This document shows positions 1,456 to 24,099 of a stretch of DNA of 38,111 nucleotides, in pieces (the stretch's first letter is position 1; each line of letters opens with the position of its first letter). The notes beneath the pieces are model-generated. The model was not told the DNA's origin. It searched no databases and was given only the letters and a program-made list of their open reading frames with translations. Location: NCBI GenBank assembly GCA_031263095.1, contig JAISGI010000018.1:1-38111 (forward strand), in the 5' to 3' direction. This stretch comes from Rickettsiales bacterium (lineage in GTDB: Bacteria; Pseudomonadota; Alphaproteobacteria; Rs-D84; CACZYB01). The position numbers and the translations under genes were made by a program.

Positions 1456-1938
1456 TTACTGCTCCACCATATGTATGGGGTGATTCTTGGAAAGGAATTC
1501 GAACATAGGCTTTGGCGAGCAGAGTATTTCCATCTCGACACGCCGGTTGTGGCTGCGGTTCTCGGGCGAATCATCCGGCACGTAGGGCTGGTATTTCCCC
1601 TTGCTCTCGAGAATCATGCGCTCGAATGGCACGCCTTCCTCATGGAACATTTCGGCTACATGCTCGGCCCGCTTCATGCCCAGGATATAGTTCTCGCGGT
1701 CGGAACCAAGGTCGTCCGTATGCCCGGTGATGTGTATAACATAGCGCCGGCTCGAGTTCATGGCACGCCGCGCCGCCGCACGCACCCGCTCGTACTCGAA
1801 GTCTGGCACCTCCGGATGGTTGTAGGTAAAGTCATCCGCGATAATCTCGCGCGAGGCAAGTATCGGGAGGTCCAAGCTGGTCGGAATCTCGCGCCCGCCG
1901 CACGCGGCCAACATCAGAGCCAGGACAAGTTTCTTCAT
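1456..1938 (-). CDS. OmpA-family C-terminal domain lipoprotein
   Basis: MKKLVLALMLAACGG lipobox and ITGHTDDLGSDRENYILGMKRAEHV OmpA-C motif; start overlaps the stop of the upstream autotransporter (ATGA). Confidence 0.85.
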   Translation of the reverse strand: MKKLVLALMLAACGGREIPTSLDLPILASREIIADDFTYNHPEVPDFEYERVRAAARRAMNSSRRYVIHITGHTDDLGSDRENYILGMKRAEHVAEMFHEEGVPFERMILESKGKYQPYVPDDSPENRSHNRRVEMEILCSPKPMFEFLSKNHPIHMVEQ

Positions 1939-4900
1939 TTTAAATCCCTCGTTGTAAAGCCGATTTTTCCACCCCATCCGCGCGCCGCTTCGCCATCAAG
2001 CGCGATGAGGTCGAAGCTCAAAAGACTATCCTTGCCATACTCGCGCGCCGCACCAAGCGAGTACTCCATGTACGAGCCGTCCATGCGCTCCTGCGGCAGA
2101 GCGATGTTCCCGGCGCGACCATTTACTCCAAGGCCATAGTTCATTACGTACAAGCCTTTGGCCCGCGCGTTCCAACCGCCTTCGGCAAGGTACACCGCGG
2201 AAAGCGACGGTACTACGCTAGCCCCGTCGAGCGACCCTGCGGTTATGTCCATGTCGCCATAGTCGGAGTGCCACTCCTTGCTTCCGTAGGAAACATAGGC
2301 GGCAAGAACGCTCGGCTGTGCCACGAACCTGCGATGTGCGAAGTTATACGCACCCTTTAAGGCAGCTCCGCCGAACAGATCGGTAGTGTGGTCATGCTCG
2401 CCTCCGATGTGCATATCGTTGCCGTACACGCCGCCGAACATCATACCCGAGGCCAAGAATCCACCTTTTTCCACGGTGCCGATTACGCCAGCCTGAAGTC
2501 CGTTCTGCCGTATGCTCGCCTCGTCATAGTCGTACGAGCCGCCGGTGTAGGCGACATACGCGCCCGGGATGAAATTGAATCCGCTCCCCATGTGCCGCAC
2601 GTCGAAATCATACCCAGCCGCCGCACCATAGAGCGAGCCGGAAAGCCCGACTCCTTGGGACATATTCCATTTCGAGGACAACCCATAGACTTTCGCCCAC
2701 TCGCCGCCACTACCGACTTCAGTCTCGAACGACTCGAGACCGAGTAGGCAATCGCATGCGTCTTCGCTTGATTTTTCTATTATCCCGTCCGTATATGTGT
2801 GGTCGAGTATCTCGCCTATTGCGAATATCTGTCCGACAAAGTTGGCGATTTTGGACGCACCACCCCGCTCGATTGTTGGGTTGAACTGGTCGTTGAACGA
2901 CAGCTCGTATTCTCCCTCGCCAAGCGAGCTGAGAGTATAGTTGCCGATAGGTGTTTTGAACTCCTTGCCCACTGCAGCGAAAGTTATGCTTGGGTCGAAC
3001 GACGGCGCCTCCATTATCCTGAAATCCACCGTCTTGTCGATTGGCGCCTTTACGAAGTTTAGATCGGCAAGCATGACGGTTCCGGCCATAGCGGTTATGT
3101 CCGCGACCCCTCCGGGCACGCTTCCATGGATGACGGTTGCCCCGGGCGCCGCCGTGCCTGCGAATTTCAAAAGGTCGGCCGTGCCGGACTGCGCATCGAC
3201 ATCCACCGCGAAATTGGCAAGCGTCTGGCTCGAGCCGGGCAGGGCGGAAAACAGCGCGAAGTCGCCCGCGAACATATGCGTCTGAAGTGCGCCGTCTATG
3301 GTCGAAAGCATGGCGTTGTCGCCAACAGCAAGCGAGCCCGAGGTGGGAATGATGCTTCCGTCGCCTACGCCTACGTTCAAGTCCACTCCTTGGACAAGCA
3401 GGGTCGCATTCGTGATGGCCATATCGCCACCGTAGATTCCGCCGCTTGCCCGCGCGGGGTTCAAGAAGCCGAGCGCATTGTTCTCAAGGTGTATGACGCC
3501 GCCACTCTGCTCGTACCCTCCGGAATAGACGTATATTCCCTGTCCCGCGATGACCAGGTGCCCGTCGGTCATGTTCGCGTACCCATAGCTTCCATCCGGC
3601 GCAATAAGCGTGCTGTTAGGGCTGATATAGACCGTTCCGCCCGCGATTTCAAGGGAATCGCCCTTGTACATGTTGAGGATTGCGTTCGAGCCGATAAGGT
3701 CGTACTCGTTCTCAAGCCTAAGGTTGCCGTATATGTTGATTGCTCCGCCAGTCGCATTGAGTATAGAGTTTGCAGGCTTGACAGCGCCCGCGTTCCAGTT
3801 CAAGACTCCACCCTCGATTGTGGACGTCCCACCAAAGAACGCGCCGTACACGTCGACTATGCCGTTCGATTGGTTGAACGCACCGGTAAAGCCCGAGCTG
3901 TCGCTCCCCGGGGCCAGGATAAGGGTGGCAAGTCCATTCTTGTTTATGTCGCCCGTACCGGATATTCCGCCGCCGAAAGTTATCATGCCGCCGGTCGAGG
4001 CAAAGTTGAATGTGCCCGAAGTGTATATGTCGTTGGGCAACGGGTCAAGCGAGTAGTTGCCCGAGAATAAGATGTTCGCACCCGGCGCCGCGGCAAGGGT
4101 AAGCGTACCTGCATTGTAAATCGCGCCTCCATCCCCGCCTGAATTGTTGCCCGCAAAGTTCATCGTGCCCGAACCGGCGTATATGCCGAGATTCCCTCCA
4201 GCCGCATTGTAAATTGCGCCACCGTCGCCTGAGGCAGTATTATTCGTGAACGAACCGGCTAAAACACTGGTCGAGGTGGAATTATAGATTGCGCCGCCAT
4301 TCCCACCCGTGGCCGAGTTGTTGTCGTAATCGACATTTATGCTTGCGACTGTGCCGGCAAGGGCGTTTATCGCACCGCCATTGTCCGAAGCCGTATTGTT
4401 CTTGACCGAAAGGTTCTGAAGCATCGCGGTGGATGAGGCGTCGTTTATGCTCAAAACCGACCCGCTTCCACTCGTGGCCGCATCTTGGATTGTCATGTCG
4501 GCAAGGGCGAAGCTCGCGCTGTTCGTCCCTATGTTGAACAGGGATTGCCGCGTACTCGGGTCGCCTTGTTTCAGGCCGGAAAGCACCGCCGTGCGCTTGC
4601 CCGCTTCCGCGCCATAGACCGAGAATGTCCCCGCCGCCATCTCATCAAGGTTTGCGTCGTTGTAGTATGGCGCGCTAGTGCTTATCTGGAACGCGCGTGG
4701 CGTAGTACTCGAGAATATGTTCACGACACCCGATGAAATCGCATTCACGTCGTTGAGCGTTATCGACCTTGAGCCTGCCGGCGGGCTGATGACAGTGCCT
4801 CCGCCTCCACCCGGCGGAGTTATTATGTTCCACGACCCGCTTCCTCCCGGAAGTGTCACCGCACCGCTGACCGACCCGTCCGGATCGGTCGAGGTGCTTA

Positions 4901-7691
4901 TCTCGAAATCACCGCTCGTGCCCGGCAGGGTTATGACACCGCTTCCGCCGCCCGGAGGAGTTGTTATCACAACGTTGCCGCCATCAGGGACGGTAAAAGT
5001 GGTGTCCCCTCCGCCCGGCAGGGTTACCGCTCCGCCGCTGCCAGGAACTGTGAAAGTTATGTCTTCGCCGCCAGGAAGCGTTATGACCTCGCTCCCTCCC
5101 GGAGGTATGGTTATCGCCCCGCCTCCGTCCGGAGGATTGACGGTGATTTCGCCGCCGCTGCCATTCGATATGTCGAACTGTCCGCTTGTTCCAGGAAGAG
5201 TAATTGCTCCGCTCCCTCCTGACGGCAGGGTTACGGTTATGTCCCCACCATCCGGAGGGTTGACGGTAATTTCGCCACCACCGGTGGGAGGGGTGATTGT
5301 GGTCGAGCCGCTTCCGTCCCCATTGGTCGAAAGCTCGAAAGTCCCATCCGTGCCCGGAAGAGTTACTACTCCGGTCTGGGAATCGCCTCCTCCACCTCCG
5401 CCACCCGGCCCGCTTCCTGCATAAAGGCCCGAGAACAGGACGTATTTTCCATCTGCCGTAGTAGTAATTTCATACGCCCCGTTGCCGGTCGCTACATGCT
5501 GCACGCTGCCCTGGGCAAAGTCAAGCGCATTTCCGTATATAATCTGTTTGTATCCGTCGATAAGCCCGTTCGCGTCGTTGATGTATATGTTGCCTAGACC
5601 GACCGTCCCGCCCGCACCGCCAAGCACGTTTATCGTGTCCGAGGATAGGGTATTTATCCCAAGATCGTTGCCCACCTTGAAGCTAAGCAGCGCGTTCGAA
5701 TCCGTCGCAAGATTGCCGAACACATAGTCCAGATAGTTGCTGGACGAATTTGCAAGGTCGATGGTCGAGCCGACGCCGTTCGCGCTAAGGAACCCATAAC
5801 CCGTCCCACCCGTGAACTGTGTCGATCCGAGCGAGACATTGGCTCCGAAGAAATCTATCGTGTTGCTCTGCCCGTTGGCGATGTCTTTGGAAAGCAGGTA
5901 ATACGCGCCAGGAGCATTTTCGTTGAATTTGATGTTCGCACCCGCGCCGGCAAAGCTTATGCCAGGCGCCCACACGCTATCCGCCGCGCCGATAGATACC
6001 GCACCCGTAGAGGTCGAGGTAAAGTTCATCTGCGCGCCGCTAAGCATATTCGCGTTGAAATAGAAACTGTTCTGTCCCGATGTTATGTTCGCGACTCCGC
6101 CGATGTTGTTTGTGCCTCCAAACATCACGCCTTGTGCGTTCAAGGTGGCGCCCGCAGCAAGGTTGTATGTGCCGATGAACCCAAAGCTCTGGCTTGGCGC
6201 CCAGAGGCCAAGCATGGTGCCGCTTGCTTGGTTTATGGTTCCGACGCCGCCGATTCCATCGCTTATGTTCAGGCTCCCGTTGCCGGTTATGTTTATGACG
6301 GCGGAGATAGAGTCTTGGTATATGTCCGCGCCATATTCAGCACCCGCGGCATAGTTGTTGGTAAAGTTTATGCCCGTTATGCCGGTCTCGAGGTTGATAA
6401 TCCCGTTGCCGAAATTATAGATTGCACCGCCGTACGTCGCGCCGTTGCTGTAAAAGTTCGTCCCGTCAAGGATGGTAAGCGTCGGGCTGTCGGAACCGAA
6501 GCTGCTTGCGATATTATAGATTGCACCGCCATTCGCCGAGGCCGAGTTGTTGGTGAACTGGCCTGAAACGGTGGTCGAGACGTTCGACTGGCCGGCCAAG
6601 GTGTTGTTGTATATTGCGCCGCCGTTCGCGGCCTTGTTCCCGTTGAAATTGCCCGAGATGTTGAAATTTATCGCGCCGCCGTATGGCGAGAATTGGTCGC
6701 CGACCGCATTGTATATTGCTCCGCCGTATGTCGTGGCCGAATTCGACTGGAACGTGCCCGAAATGTTGATATTGTTATCCGTGTTTCCGCCGTTGATTTG
6801 TGTTGCGATTGCGCCGCCGCTTGCGGCTTGGTTCTGGGCGAAATCGCCGCCCGTGATGTTGAAGTCGTTTACTGCCGGATTGTTTCCGTTCATGACGCCG
6901 TTATAAATCGCACCGCCAAGTCCGGTGGCCGAGTTCGCGTAATAATGGTTCCCCGTTGCCGTGAAAGCGTTCTTGACACTGCTCCCACCGGCATTGTTGG
7001 CCATAAAGTATATTCCGCCGCCATTGCCGGCCATAGCTCTGTTGAACGCAATATAGTGCGTGCTCGTTCCAGAGGAATCTATGACCGAGAATTCTATGGG
7101 AATGCTTGAATCCGAATACTGCGCGTTATTCGAGACCATATAGACCGCACCGCCTGAGGCCGCGCTGTTGCTGGAAAAGTCGTCATCGGTCAGGATATAG
7201 CGATTTGGGGCCAAGCTTGCCACCTGCGCTTGAGCGGATACGGCACCTCCATTCGACCCGGTCGAGTTTCCATAGAAATAAGTGCCGCTAAGGCTGTAAT
7301 TGTGCGTCCCTGTCCCGTCTCCATGGAAAGCAACAGCTCCATTCGTCGCTCCATAGATACTAAGGTTGGATATATCGACGCTTATGTCGTTTCCCCATCC
7401 CGGCGCGAAAACGAGGGTGTATGGACCAAGGATAAGCGCGGTTCCGTCTGGCGTGCCGCCATAGCTTGTCATAGACATGCTGGATCCGAGCGTATTCAGA
7501 TAGTCGGATATGGCTATGCCATAGTTCCCAGCCGAGTCGATAGGTGTGCCGACAATTGTCATTTGTGTCGCACCACTGTTCCAAGCACTTGAGAAGTCTG
7601 ACGAAGTAGAGATTGTCGCGGCAGCGCTCCGTACATACAAAACCATCGCCGCCGCTAAGAATAGACGTAGGTACCTGATTTTCCCCTCCAT
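1935..7691 (-). CDS. Giant autotransporter with Pmp-like GGAI/FxxN passenger repeats, Gly/Pro-rich linker and C-terminal beta-barrel
   Basis: 1918-aa ORF; signal-like N-terminus MEGKIRYLRLFLAAAMVLYVRSAAA; at least 12 GGA(I/V)-type motifs with FxxN motifs between them; C-terminal ~280 aa with alternating aromatic/glycine beta-barrel pattern. Confidence 0.88.
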   Translation of the reverse strand: MEGKIRYLRLFLAAAMVLYVRSAAATISTSSDFSSAWNSGATQMTIVGTPIDSAGNYGIAISDYLNTLGSSMSMTSYGGTPDGTALILGPYTLVFAPGWGNDISVDISNLSIYGATNGAVAFHGDGTGTHNYSLSGTYFYGNSTGSNGGAVSAQAQVASLAPNRYILTDDDFSSNSAASGGAVYMVSNNAQYSDSSIPIEFSVIDSSGTSTHYIAFNRAMAGNGGGIYFMANNAGGSSVKNAFTATGNHYYANSATGLGGAIYNGVMNGNNPAVNDFNITGGDFAQNQAASGGAIATQINGGNTDNNINISGTFQSNSATTYGGAIYNAVGDQFSPYGGAINFNISGNFNGNKAANGGAIYNNTLAGQSNVSTTVSGQFTNNSASANGGAIYNIASSFGSDSPTLTILDGTNFYSNGATYGGAIYNFGNGIINLETGITGINFTNNYAAGAEYGADIYQDSISAVINITGNGSLNISDGIGGVGTINQASGTMLGLWAPSQSFGFIGTYNLAAGATLNAQGVMFGGTNNIGGVANITSGQNSFYFNANMLSGAQMNFTSTSTGAVSIGAADSVWAPGISFAGAGANIKFNENAPGAYYLLSKDIANGQSNTIDFFGANVSLGSTQFTGGTGYGFLSANGVGSTIDLANSSSNYLDYVFGNLATDSNALLSFKVGNDLGINTLSSDTINVLGGAGGTVGLGNIYINDANGLIDGYKQIIYGNALDFAQGSVQHVATGNGAYEITTTADGKYVLFSGLYAGSGPGGGGGGGDSQTGVVTLPGTDGTFELSTNGDGSGSTTITPPTGGGEITVNPPDGGDITVTLPSGGSGAITLPGTSGQFDISNGSGGEITVNPPDGGGAITIPPGGSEVITLPGGEDITFTVPGSGGAVTLPGGGDTTFTVPDGGNVVITTPPGGGSGVITLPGTSGDFEISTSTDPDGSVSGAVTLPGGSGSWNIITPPGGGGGTVISPPAGSRSITLNDVNAISSGVVNIFSSTTPRAFQISTSAPYYNDANLDEMAAGTFSVYGAEAGKRTAVLSGLKQGDPSTRQSLFNIGTNSASFALADMTIQDAATSGSGSVLSINDASSTAMLQNLSVKNNTASDNGGAINALAGTVASINVDYDNNSATGGNGGAIYNSTSTSVLAGSFTNNTASGDGGAIYNAAGGNLGIYAGSGTMNFAGNNSGGDGGAIYNAGTLTLAAAPGANILFSGNYSLDPLPNDIYTSGTFNFASTGGMITFGGGISGTGDINKNGLATLILAPGSDSSGFTGAFNQSNGIVDVYGAFFGGTSTIEGGVLNWNAGAVKPANSILNATGGAINIYGNLRLENEYDLIGSNAILNMYKGDSLEIAGGTVYISPNSTLIAPDGSYGYANMTDGHLVIAGQGIYVYSGGYEQSGGVIHLENNALGFLNPARASGGIYGGDMAITNATLLVQGVDLNVGVGDGSIIPTSGSLAVGDNAMLSTIDGALQTHMFAGDFALFSALPGSSQTLANFAVDVDAQSGTADLLKFAGTAAPGATVIHGSVPGGVADITAMAGTVMLADLNFVKAPIDKTVDFRIMEAPSFDPSITFAAVGKEFKTPIGNYTLSSLGEGEYELSFNDQFNPTIERGGASKIANFVGQIFAIGEILDHTYTDGIIEKSSEDACDCLLGLESFETEVGSGGEWAKVYGLSSKWNMSQGVGLSGSLYGAAAGYDFDVRHMGSGFNFIPGAYVAYTGGSYDYDEASIRQNGLQAGVIGTVEKGGFLASGMMFGGVYGNDMHIGGEHDHTTDLFGGAALKGAYNFAHRRFVAQPSVLAAYVSYGSKEWHSDYGDMDITAGSLDGASVVPSLSAVYLAEGGWNARAKGLYVMNYGLGVNGRAGNIALPQERMDGSYMEYSLGAAREYGKDSLLSFDLIALDGEAARGWGGKIGFTTRDLK
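4770..5418 (-). repeat. Low-complexity Gly/Pro tandem repeat linker inside the autotransporter (ITLPG / ITVNPPDGG units)
   Basis: Repeated peptide units VTLPGTDG, EITVNPPDGG, AITLPGTSG, VITLPGG, FTVPDGG, ITTPPGGG visible in the ORF translation; boundaries approximate. Confidence 0.85.
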
Positions 7692-23303: not shown

Positions 23304-23639
23304 TCAAGCCGCCTCGAAATGCGGCGTATCTATAAACGAAGCGAAATGCCCGCCCCACTTGTTCCCCGCGCGAAGCGTTTCCCAGTATTTGCCAATCGGC
23401 TCGAGCGCGCTGACCTTCTCGACCAACCGCCCATTCTTCGTAAAGAACAGGTCAATTGCAAGCTTGTCCAAGTGTTTGCTGAACATTGTCTTGCTTTTCC
23501 CGGCCGCAAAATAAATCTTCTGCTGCTCGAGGGTGCGCTGCGCCTCGCCTATGCGGCATTCAAAGCCAAGCTCGAACGAACGCGCCAAAAGCGCCGCCAC
23601 GTCGCGCGAAAATTTTTCCTGCCTCTCTCCTAGTATCAT
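23304..23639 (-). CDS. Peptidase M15-type (endolysin-like) peptidoglycan hydrolase
   Basis: SKHLDKLAIDLFF (SxHxxxxAxD zinc motif) and KWGGHFASFIDTPHFE C-terminal motif; SD AGGAG 6-7 nt before ATG. Confidence 0.8.
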   Translation of the reverse strand: MILGERQEKFSRDVAALLARSFELGFECRIGEAQRTLEQQKIYFAAGKSKTMFSKHLDKLAIDLFFTKNGRLVEKVSALEPIGKYWETLRAGNKWGGHFASFIDTPHFEAA

Positions 23640-23656
23640 TTTTATCTCCTTTTTTT

Positions 23657-24041
23657 TGTACCCACAGCCAGTGGCGAATATGAATGCTACCGATGATAGG
23701 CCCGGACGGGTGATTGGCCCGGGGCTCCAAAGGCGCCAGCCGCGGAAATTCTTTCTGGAAGAATACCGCGTAGTTTAGTCCGCAAGGACAAGGGTAAGTA
23801 ATAAGATACGAACCCTAACCAAGTCGCCCCTTGGGAGGTGGCGAAGCCGCCCTGAAGCCAAAGAGGTTCGGTAAGGAACCTGGATGGAGCCTCCGCCTGG
23901 CAGGTTGTAGCCTGCTATTTTACGGTCTGGGAGGCAGTAGGGTTTCGCATGGTCATTCCCGCGGAGGCGGGAATCCGGTTGTACGAAACCGTAAAGGACA
24001 GCTATGACATTCAAAAAGACGCCAAAGGTCGTGTGGGTACA
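23657..24041 (-). ncRNA. Putative large structured RNA (standalone ncRNA or 5' leader of the M15 gene); class not recognised
   Basis: Ends form a perfect 10-bp helix TGTACCCACA (23657-23666)/TGTGGGTACA (24032-24041); nested GGCG/CGCC and GAATG/CATTC; many internal hairpins; strong promoter upstream on minus strand; no plausible ORF. Confidence 0.6.
23952..23980. repeat. dRS3-like palindrome inside the putative structured RNA
   Basis: GTCATTCCCGCGGAGGCGGGAATCCGGTT; exact ATTCCC-N8-GGGAAT core (23955-23974). Confidence 0.85.
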
Positions 24042-24070
24042 CATTCCTTCGCTTTTCTAAAGCTTCCCAC

Positions 24071-24099
24071 TATATAGCACAAATAGAGAACAATGTCAA
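24071..24099 (-). promoter_or_regulatory. Near-consensus sigma70 promoter reading into the structured RNA
   Basis: Minus strand TTGACA (24099-24094), 17-bp spacer, TATATA (24076-24071). Confidence 0.75.

Follow-up and report, generated by a model that had tools for sequence, protein, structure and literature searches.

The window, that is, the whole stretch of DNA analysed here (38,111 nucleotides), carries between ruvC and a gene for a 111-aa M15 peptidase an element of ~390 nt within a 409-nt stretch. The features of this locus are the following.

23304..23639, minus: gene for an M15 peptidase or phage-type endolysin, 111 aa, downstream of the RNA (Pfam, PHROG)
23637..23649, minus: GGAG-N6-ATG directly behind helix P1; Shine-Dalgarno sequence and start codon follow P1 in all five copies
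23657..24065, minus: one of the five paralogous large structured RNAs, its ~13 helices forming three domains that P1 closes (folding, paralogue comparison)
23657..23666, minus: 3' arm of P1, TGTACCCACA, pairing with 24032-24041
23699..23725, minus: hairpin P13, its stem rewritten between copies and its loop CAATCACCC nearly invariant (arm-swap, covariation)
23734..23843, minus: middle domain, P8 (23839-23843 / 23734-23738) around hairpins P9, P10, P11 and P12 (covariation)
23845..24003, minus: left domain, P4 (23995-24003 / 23845-23853) closing arms P5, P6/P6b and P7 (folds, arm-swap)
23915..23934, minus: invariant segment CCTCCCAGACCGTAAAATAG in the P6 arm (copy comparison)
23955..23974, minus: dispersed short repeat hairpin ATTCCCGC..GCGGGAAT in the variable arm P5, shared with copy C40 only
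24032..24041, minus: 5' arm of P1, TGTGGGTACA, pairing with 23657-23666; C28 shows a compensatory change from A-U to G-C
24071..24099, minus: sigma70-type promoter of the RNA, TTGACA-N17-TATATA, also present at copies C41, C17 and C28
24077..24091, minus: LexA-box-like operator GTTCTCTATTTGTGC in the promoter spacer, 12 of 15 bases as in this genome's own lexA operator, ATTCTATATTTGTTC

Both the closing helix P1 and the promoter lie where the preliminary description had placed them, and the M15 start codon follows P1 after 17 nt (~18 had been given), with the GGAG of the Shine-Dalgarno sequence inside this gap. The M15 protein matches Peptidase_M15_4 in Pfam (9e-08) and the endolysin family PHROG 465 among phage families (4.5e-18). 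Judged from the sequence, the window RNA is physically the 5' part of the M15 endolysin transcript, because no further promoter was recognised between the two. Elsewhere in the window (1935-7691, minus) there is a 1918-aa ORF with a weak match to the Chlamydia polymorphic membrane protein repeat, whose product is likely a large surface or autotransporter-type protein.

Five paralogues in one genome

The genome to which the window belongs is an 88.6% complete MAG of 854,641 bases in 44 contigs. When it was searched with the element, copies were found on contigs C17, C40 and C41 at 78-83% identity, together with fragments on C28 that correspond to a fifth, divergent full copy; the window copy is called C22. 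R1, a covariance model built on the 3' half, was run over 842,717 bases of this genome and recovered exactly these five copies at 144-187 bits, the next match being noise at 12 bits, and no sixth copy. Identity between pairs of copies ranges from 57 to 89%, and the exact 20-mer CCTCCCAGACCGTAAAATAG is present in all of them. The copies are mosaic: C22 is 100% identical to C17 in P2-P3 and at the 3' end, but its P5 arm is 92-100% identical to that of C40, a pattern suggestive of gene conversion. Homology among the copies ends at about the start codon behind P1. A Shine-Dalgarno sequence with a start codon, as seen behind every copy, occurs in 5.6% of random 35-nt windows; a convincing ORF follows in the window copy alone.

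Outside this genome, a DNA and 19-mer search of 58 relatives found no homologue, nor did R1 with loose filters in the 10 closest relatives. The same model, with stricter filters that lose weak matches, found none in 190 other genomes of the order and 386 others of the class; the weak class-level matches, of at most 24.7 bits and in GC-rich genomes, were judged from their alignments to be due to chance. Viral contigs, phages and plasmids yielded no homologue, and none of the 16 matches to a relaxed viral pattern was backed by the model. An exact 17-mer search of 85,488 genomes/species gave 16 matches, which were also judged to be chance since none was backed by the covariance model. On the searches made, this RNA family appears to be conserved among the paralogues of one species only.

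Common fold and strand

Compared with shuffled sequences, the 409-nt stretch has a folding z-score of -5.0 on the minus strand and -3.7 on the plus strand, none of 100 shuffles being as good, and all five copies fold alike (z -4.1 to -7.2). The common plan consists of a small 5' hairpin, the closing helices P1-P3, the left domain, the middle domain and hairpin P13, from which individual minimum-energy folds deviate locally in places. The earlier view of a large structured RNA of unrecognised class with its own strong promoter is borne out.

The comparison of homologues that had been proposed as a check does reveal covariation, the homologues being paralogues within the same genome; the covariation comes entirely from paralogues within a single species. 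Of the 41 pairs in the 3' half, 12 have both sides changed, against 3.7 in shuffles, none of 500 of which reached 12, and against 0-4 when partners were slid by 1-3 columns; 95.6% of cells are paired across the copies. The arms of seven variable helices (P2, P3, P4, P5, P6b, P7 and P13) are largely rewritten between copies, yet pairing is kept within each copy: native duplexes have mean energies of -9 to -14 kcal/mol, and those with swapped arms of -1 to -9. P8 changes from CGCCA/UGGCG in the window copy to UGCCA/UGGCA in C28. Invariant sequence is found in internal segments and loops, namely CCTCCCAGACCGTAAAATAG, GGGGCGACTTGG and CCAATCACCCGT (one variant), and the arms drift with compensation. 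One segment of P12/P8 is complementary to the 16S 530 loop, which is accounted for by the pairing of P12 and P8 themselves.

Most of the helices listed in the preliminary description recur in all five copies. One of the listed hairpins, GGTGGC-GAA-GCCGCC, competes with the better supported P4 (GCUGUCC/GGGCGGC) and P8, and the hairpin at 23955-23974 turned out to be a separate dispersed repeat. This repeat, CATTCCCGC..GCGGGAATCC at window positions 23949-23978, occurs in at least 15 other places of the genome and is shared with related genomes; two Neisseria records and one Microcystis phage record match it as well. It lies within arm P5 of two RNA copies.

The strand had been left in doubt, the promoter favouring minus. 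From sequence comparison the RNA strand is minus, because the helix cells hold 39 G-U against 1 A-C, a count biased towards minus as the arms were picked from minus-strand folds, because the promoter is shared, and because C28 folds with a z-score of -5.4 on the minus strand and -2.1 on the plus strand.

Promoter and putative operator

The alphaproteobacterial LexA box is a direct repeat, GTTC-N7-GTTC (PMC3323433), and the motif in the RNA promoter resembles it. That this genome falls in the Alphaproteobacteria was deduced from its GroEL, which among plasmid records comes nearest to this class. Scored against this repeat, the boxes of C22, C28 and C41 match at 7/8 positions, as does that of C40, and the degenerate box of C17 at 6/8; the second half-site is GTGC instead of GTTC. 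In C40 the promoter is otherwise replaced and the box lies upstream of its -35. The genome has lexA-recA (Pfam LexA_DNA_bind and Peptidase_S24), and its lexA promoter carries ATTCTATATTTGTTC on the reverse strand; that of G002, a species of the same genus, carries the same operator form, ATTCTAGCTTTGTTC. A 7/8 box is also found 19 nt before the start of uvrA.

The combined promoter-operator TTGACWTTGTTCTNNNTTTGTGCTATA is rare, being found with up to 2 mismatches only at RNA copies C22, C41 and C28, at a tail-fibre gene on contig C16 and at a locus on contig C36. The pattern RTTCTNNNTTTGTKC has six sites in 843 kb, at C22, C28, C41, lexA, the tail-fibre gene and the C36 locus, against ~0.4 expected from base counts and 2 for the reversed-pattern control; this count is descriptive, since the pattern was drawn up after the sites had been seen. 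Within ~630 kb of G002 the pattern has three sites, of which one is at lexA and one at M15. A motif made from the two lexA promoters alone shows no genome-wide enrichment, with 15 sites at up to 2 mismatches compared with 22 +/- 10 in permuted controls; 2 of its 14 non-lexA sites (two mismatches) lie in RNA promoters, those of C41 and C40. Because of their homology, three of the operator-bearing copies do not count as independent evidence. Taken together, these motifs make LexA control of the RNA probable.

The C16 gene (2267-2797, minus) encodes a protein with an Mtd_N domain (2.6e-09) and is located among glycosyltransferase and other chromosomal genes, behind the same promoter as the RNA. 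This setting suggests scattered, domesticated phage parts.

Two other groups of sites were observed. At the C36 locus (C36:6500-8600, minus strand, about 1000-1375), which has a ferredoxin gene on one side and an lptA-like one on the other, the same LexA-type promoter precedes a ~350-nt stretch that has no PHROG match and ends in GGAGAAAA plus GTG, much as the RNA copies end in a Shine-Dalgarno sequence and a start codon. Considered as a sixth copy, this locus was rejected: it is single-copy, not unusually structured (z -0.6) and has no Rfam match. Promoter-like sites at L111 14077, L130 3808, L153 4986 and L160 13374 and 15670 are followed by the 5' UTR TCTAACCAAAGGA or a close variant, which in some cases precedes secreted-type proteins with a YYTCxACAVPG motif; the genes with this leader could be a paralogous surface-protein family.

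Readings of the element and known RNA classes

Five copies in this genome have one conserved, covarying fold on the minus strand, share a promoter/operator and belong to no known family. The reading that we prefer, with a probability of roughly 0.6, is that of an unrecognised multicopy structured RNA of ~390 nt under LexA/SOS control, which in one copy is read through into an endolysin. LexA bound at the operator in the promoter spacer would keep the RNA repressed, and its release upon DNA damage would allow the five ornate RNAs to be made. One of them, the window copy, would run on into the phage-derived M15 endolysin, and the phage tail-fibre gene with the same promoter/operator would be expressed alongside. 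We infer that the RNA is SOS-induced and acts in trans, as a folded RNA, during damage or lysis. We favour a folded RNA acting in trans over a switch in cis, because no convincing gene lies behind four of the five copies and because it is internal segments and loops that are invariant, the arms drifting with compensation. It can also be argued that the RNA is useful to its host, as five diverged copies are kept in a genome under 1 Mb, where space is scarce.

A long structured 5' leader controlling downstream translation in cis, riboswitch-like or of the standby type and acting on the endolysin, seems rather unlikely to us. The preliminary description had offered a leader of a peptidoglycan hydrolase as one reading, and this holds insofar as the window copy forms the 5' part of the M15 transcript, with no other promoter recognised in between. 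Moreover, the Shine-Dalgarno sequence and start codon after P1 in all copies, near which homology stops, favour some leader history or function, which our preferred reading leaves unexplained. However, the copies do not recur before the same or related genes, a convincing gene lying behind one of the five. M15 is absent at the four others: the C17 copy is convergent to a hypothetical gene and runs antisense into it, the C41 copy does the same with EF-P, the C28 copy, between tRNA-Lys and groES/groEL, runs into tRNA-Lys, which has its own promoter, and the C40 copy precedes a hypothetical gene that also has its own promoter. In G002, an M15 homologue with 64% identity stands directly behind the same promoter, TTGACTTTGTTCTTGTTTTGTGCTATA, with no RNA between. 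Since the surroundings of the copies differ and the G002 gene lacks the RNA, this RNA was rejected as an ancestral M15 leader and is not bound to one gene.

It is more doubtful still that the copies are a dispersed, non-autonomous mobile element (intron-like, guide-RNA-like or MITE-like) whose RNA fold serves its own spread. Such an element would be in keeping with five scattered copies in one species and none found in relatives, with the recombination that the mosaic copies imply, and with sites in relatives: EF-P is followed by no element in those relatives where the sequence behind it could be read (one of six contigs ends too early), and in G002 none precedes M15. Against this, the copies keep their promoter and compensatory pairs rather than decaying. 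Target-site duplications were not seen by eye, and the inverted repeats are internal (P1), off the ends of the repeat unit. No reverse transcriptase (PF00078), as a group II intron or retron would call for, was found in this genome, and a crude regular-expression scan found no TnpB-like zinc ribbon or HNH motif; the Rfam intron models had no match, and neither a HEARO match nor an adjacent nuclease gene was found at the copies.

That the models have missed a divergent RNA of a known class (RNase P, tmRNA, 6S, ROOL, GOLLD or OLE) is very improbable, although size and complexity are comparable and GOLLD is phage-linked and increases during phage lysis (PMC12286853). In the comparison with Rfam suggested earlier, the window element had no match that reached the gathering score and, at E<=10, chance matches only. 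All models of Rfam 15, run with permissive filters, again left the window element unmatched; in the other copies they gave no convincing match, and none at gathering score inside the element; the ROOL, GOLLD and OLE models matched neither. In addition, housekeeping RNAs are single-copy, as opposed to the five copies here. A decayed coding sequence or a chance fold, for which internal ORFs of up to 89 aa might speak, is contradicted by indels of any length between copies, the lack of a common reading frame and the strong covariation, and has a negligible probability.

Bacteria have few large ornate RNAs, most of them without an assigned function, and some form RNA-only cages; ROOL and GOLLD are such RNA-only assemblies. 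The element described here is a further candidate, in which the predicted LexA operator, together with an endolysin encoded on the RNA's own transcript, provides a testable inducing condition, usually missing for such RNAs, and in which five diverged copies in one genome give covariation without other species. As a tentative extension, it might represent a new class of multicopy, LexA-controlled ornate RNAs that function as RNA machines or scaffolds, perhaps assembled from RNA alone, in a DNA-damage/lysis programme that a genome-reduced alphaproteobacterium has built of domesticated phage parts. The phage origin that had been raised as a possibility for the locus is partly borne out by the match of M15 to phage endolysins and by the same promoter/operator at the tail-fibre gene; no phage was found to carry the RNA itself.

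REP/BIME, ERIC and Neisseria dRS3 are dispersed, lineage-restricted, foldable short hairpins. Our element is likewise lineage-restricted, scattered and foldable, but has ~13 covarying helices and a promoter. HEARO and the IscB omega RNA are structured, a few hundred nt long and can be multicopy, all of which holds here; the difference is that the place of a 5' guide, behind the promoter, is taken up by conserved sequence, and that no nuclease gene adjoins. The E. coli tisB mRNA is SOS-controlled and has a LexA-type promoter followed by a structured leader, a Shine-Dalgarno sequence and a start codon, which is also the order here, with a predicted LexA-type promoter, whereas our element has no small toxin ORF and, in four of five copies, no convincing gene behind it. 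OLE RNA is also a large ornate bacterial RNA, but has other hosts, and the RNA described here is multicopy and has no Rfam match. ROOL and GOLLD are phage- or prophage-encoded, often near tRNA islands, and are, like our element, large, multi-branched, phage-linked and function-unassigned. Many GOLLDs exceed 800 nt, compared with ~390 nt here, and the five copies, which match no Rfam model, sit among chromosomal genes outside any prophage or tRNA island (C28 beside a single tRNA-Lys) and were not found in viral contigs, phages or plasmids. By the tests made, this RNA would be a non-member that is similar to GOLLD in its behaviour.
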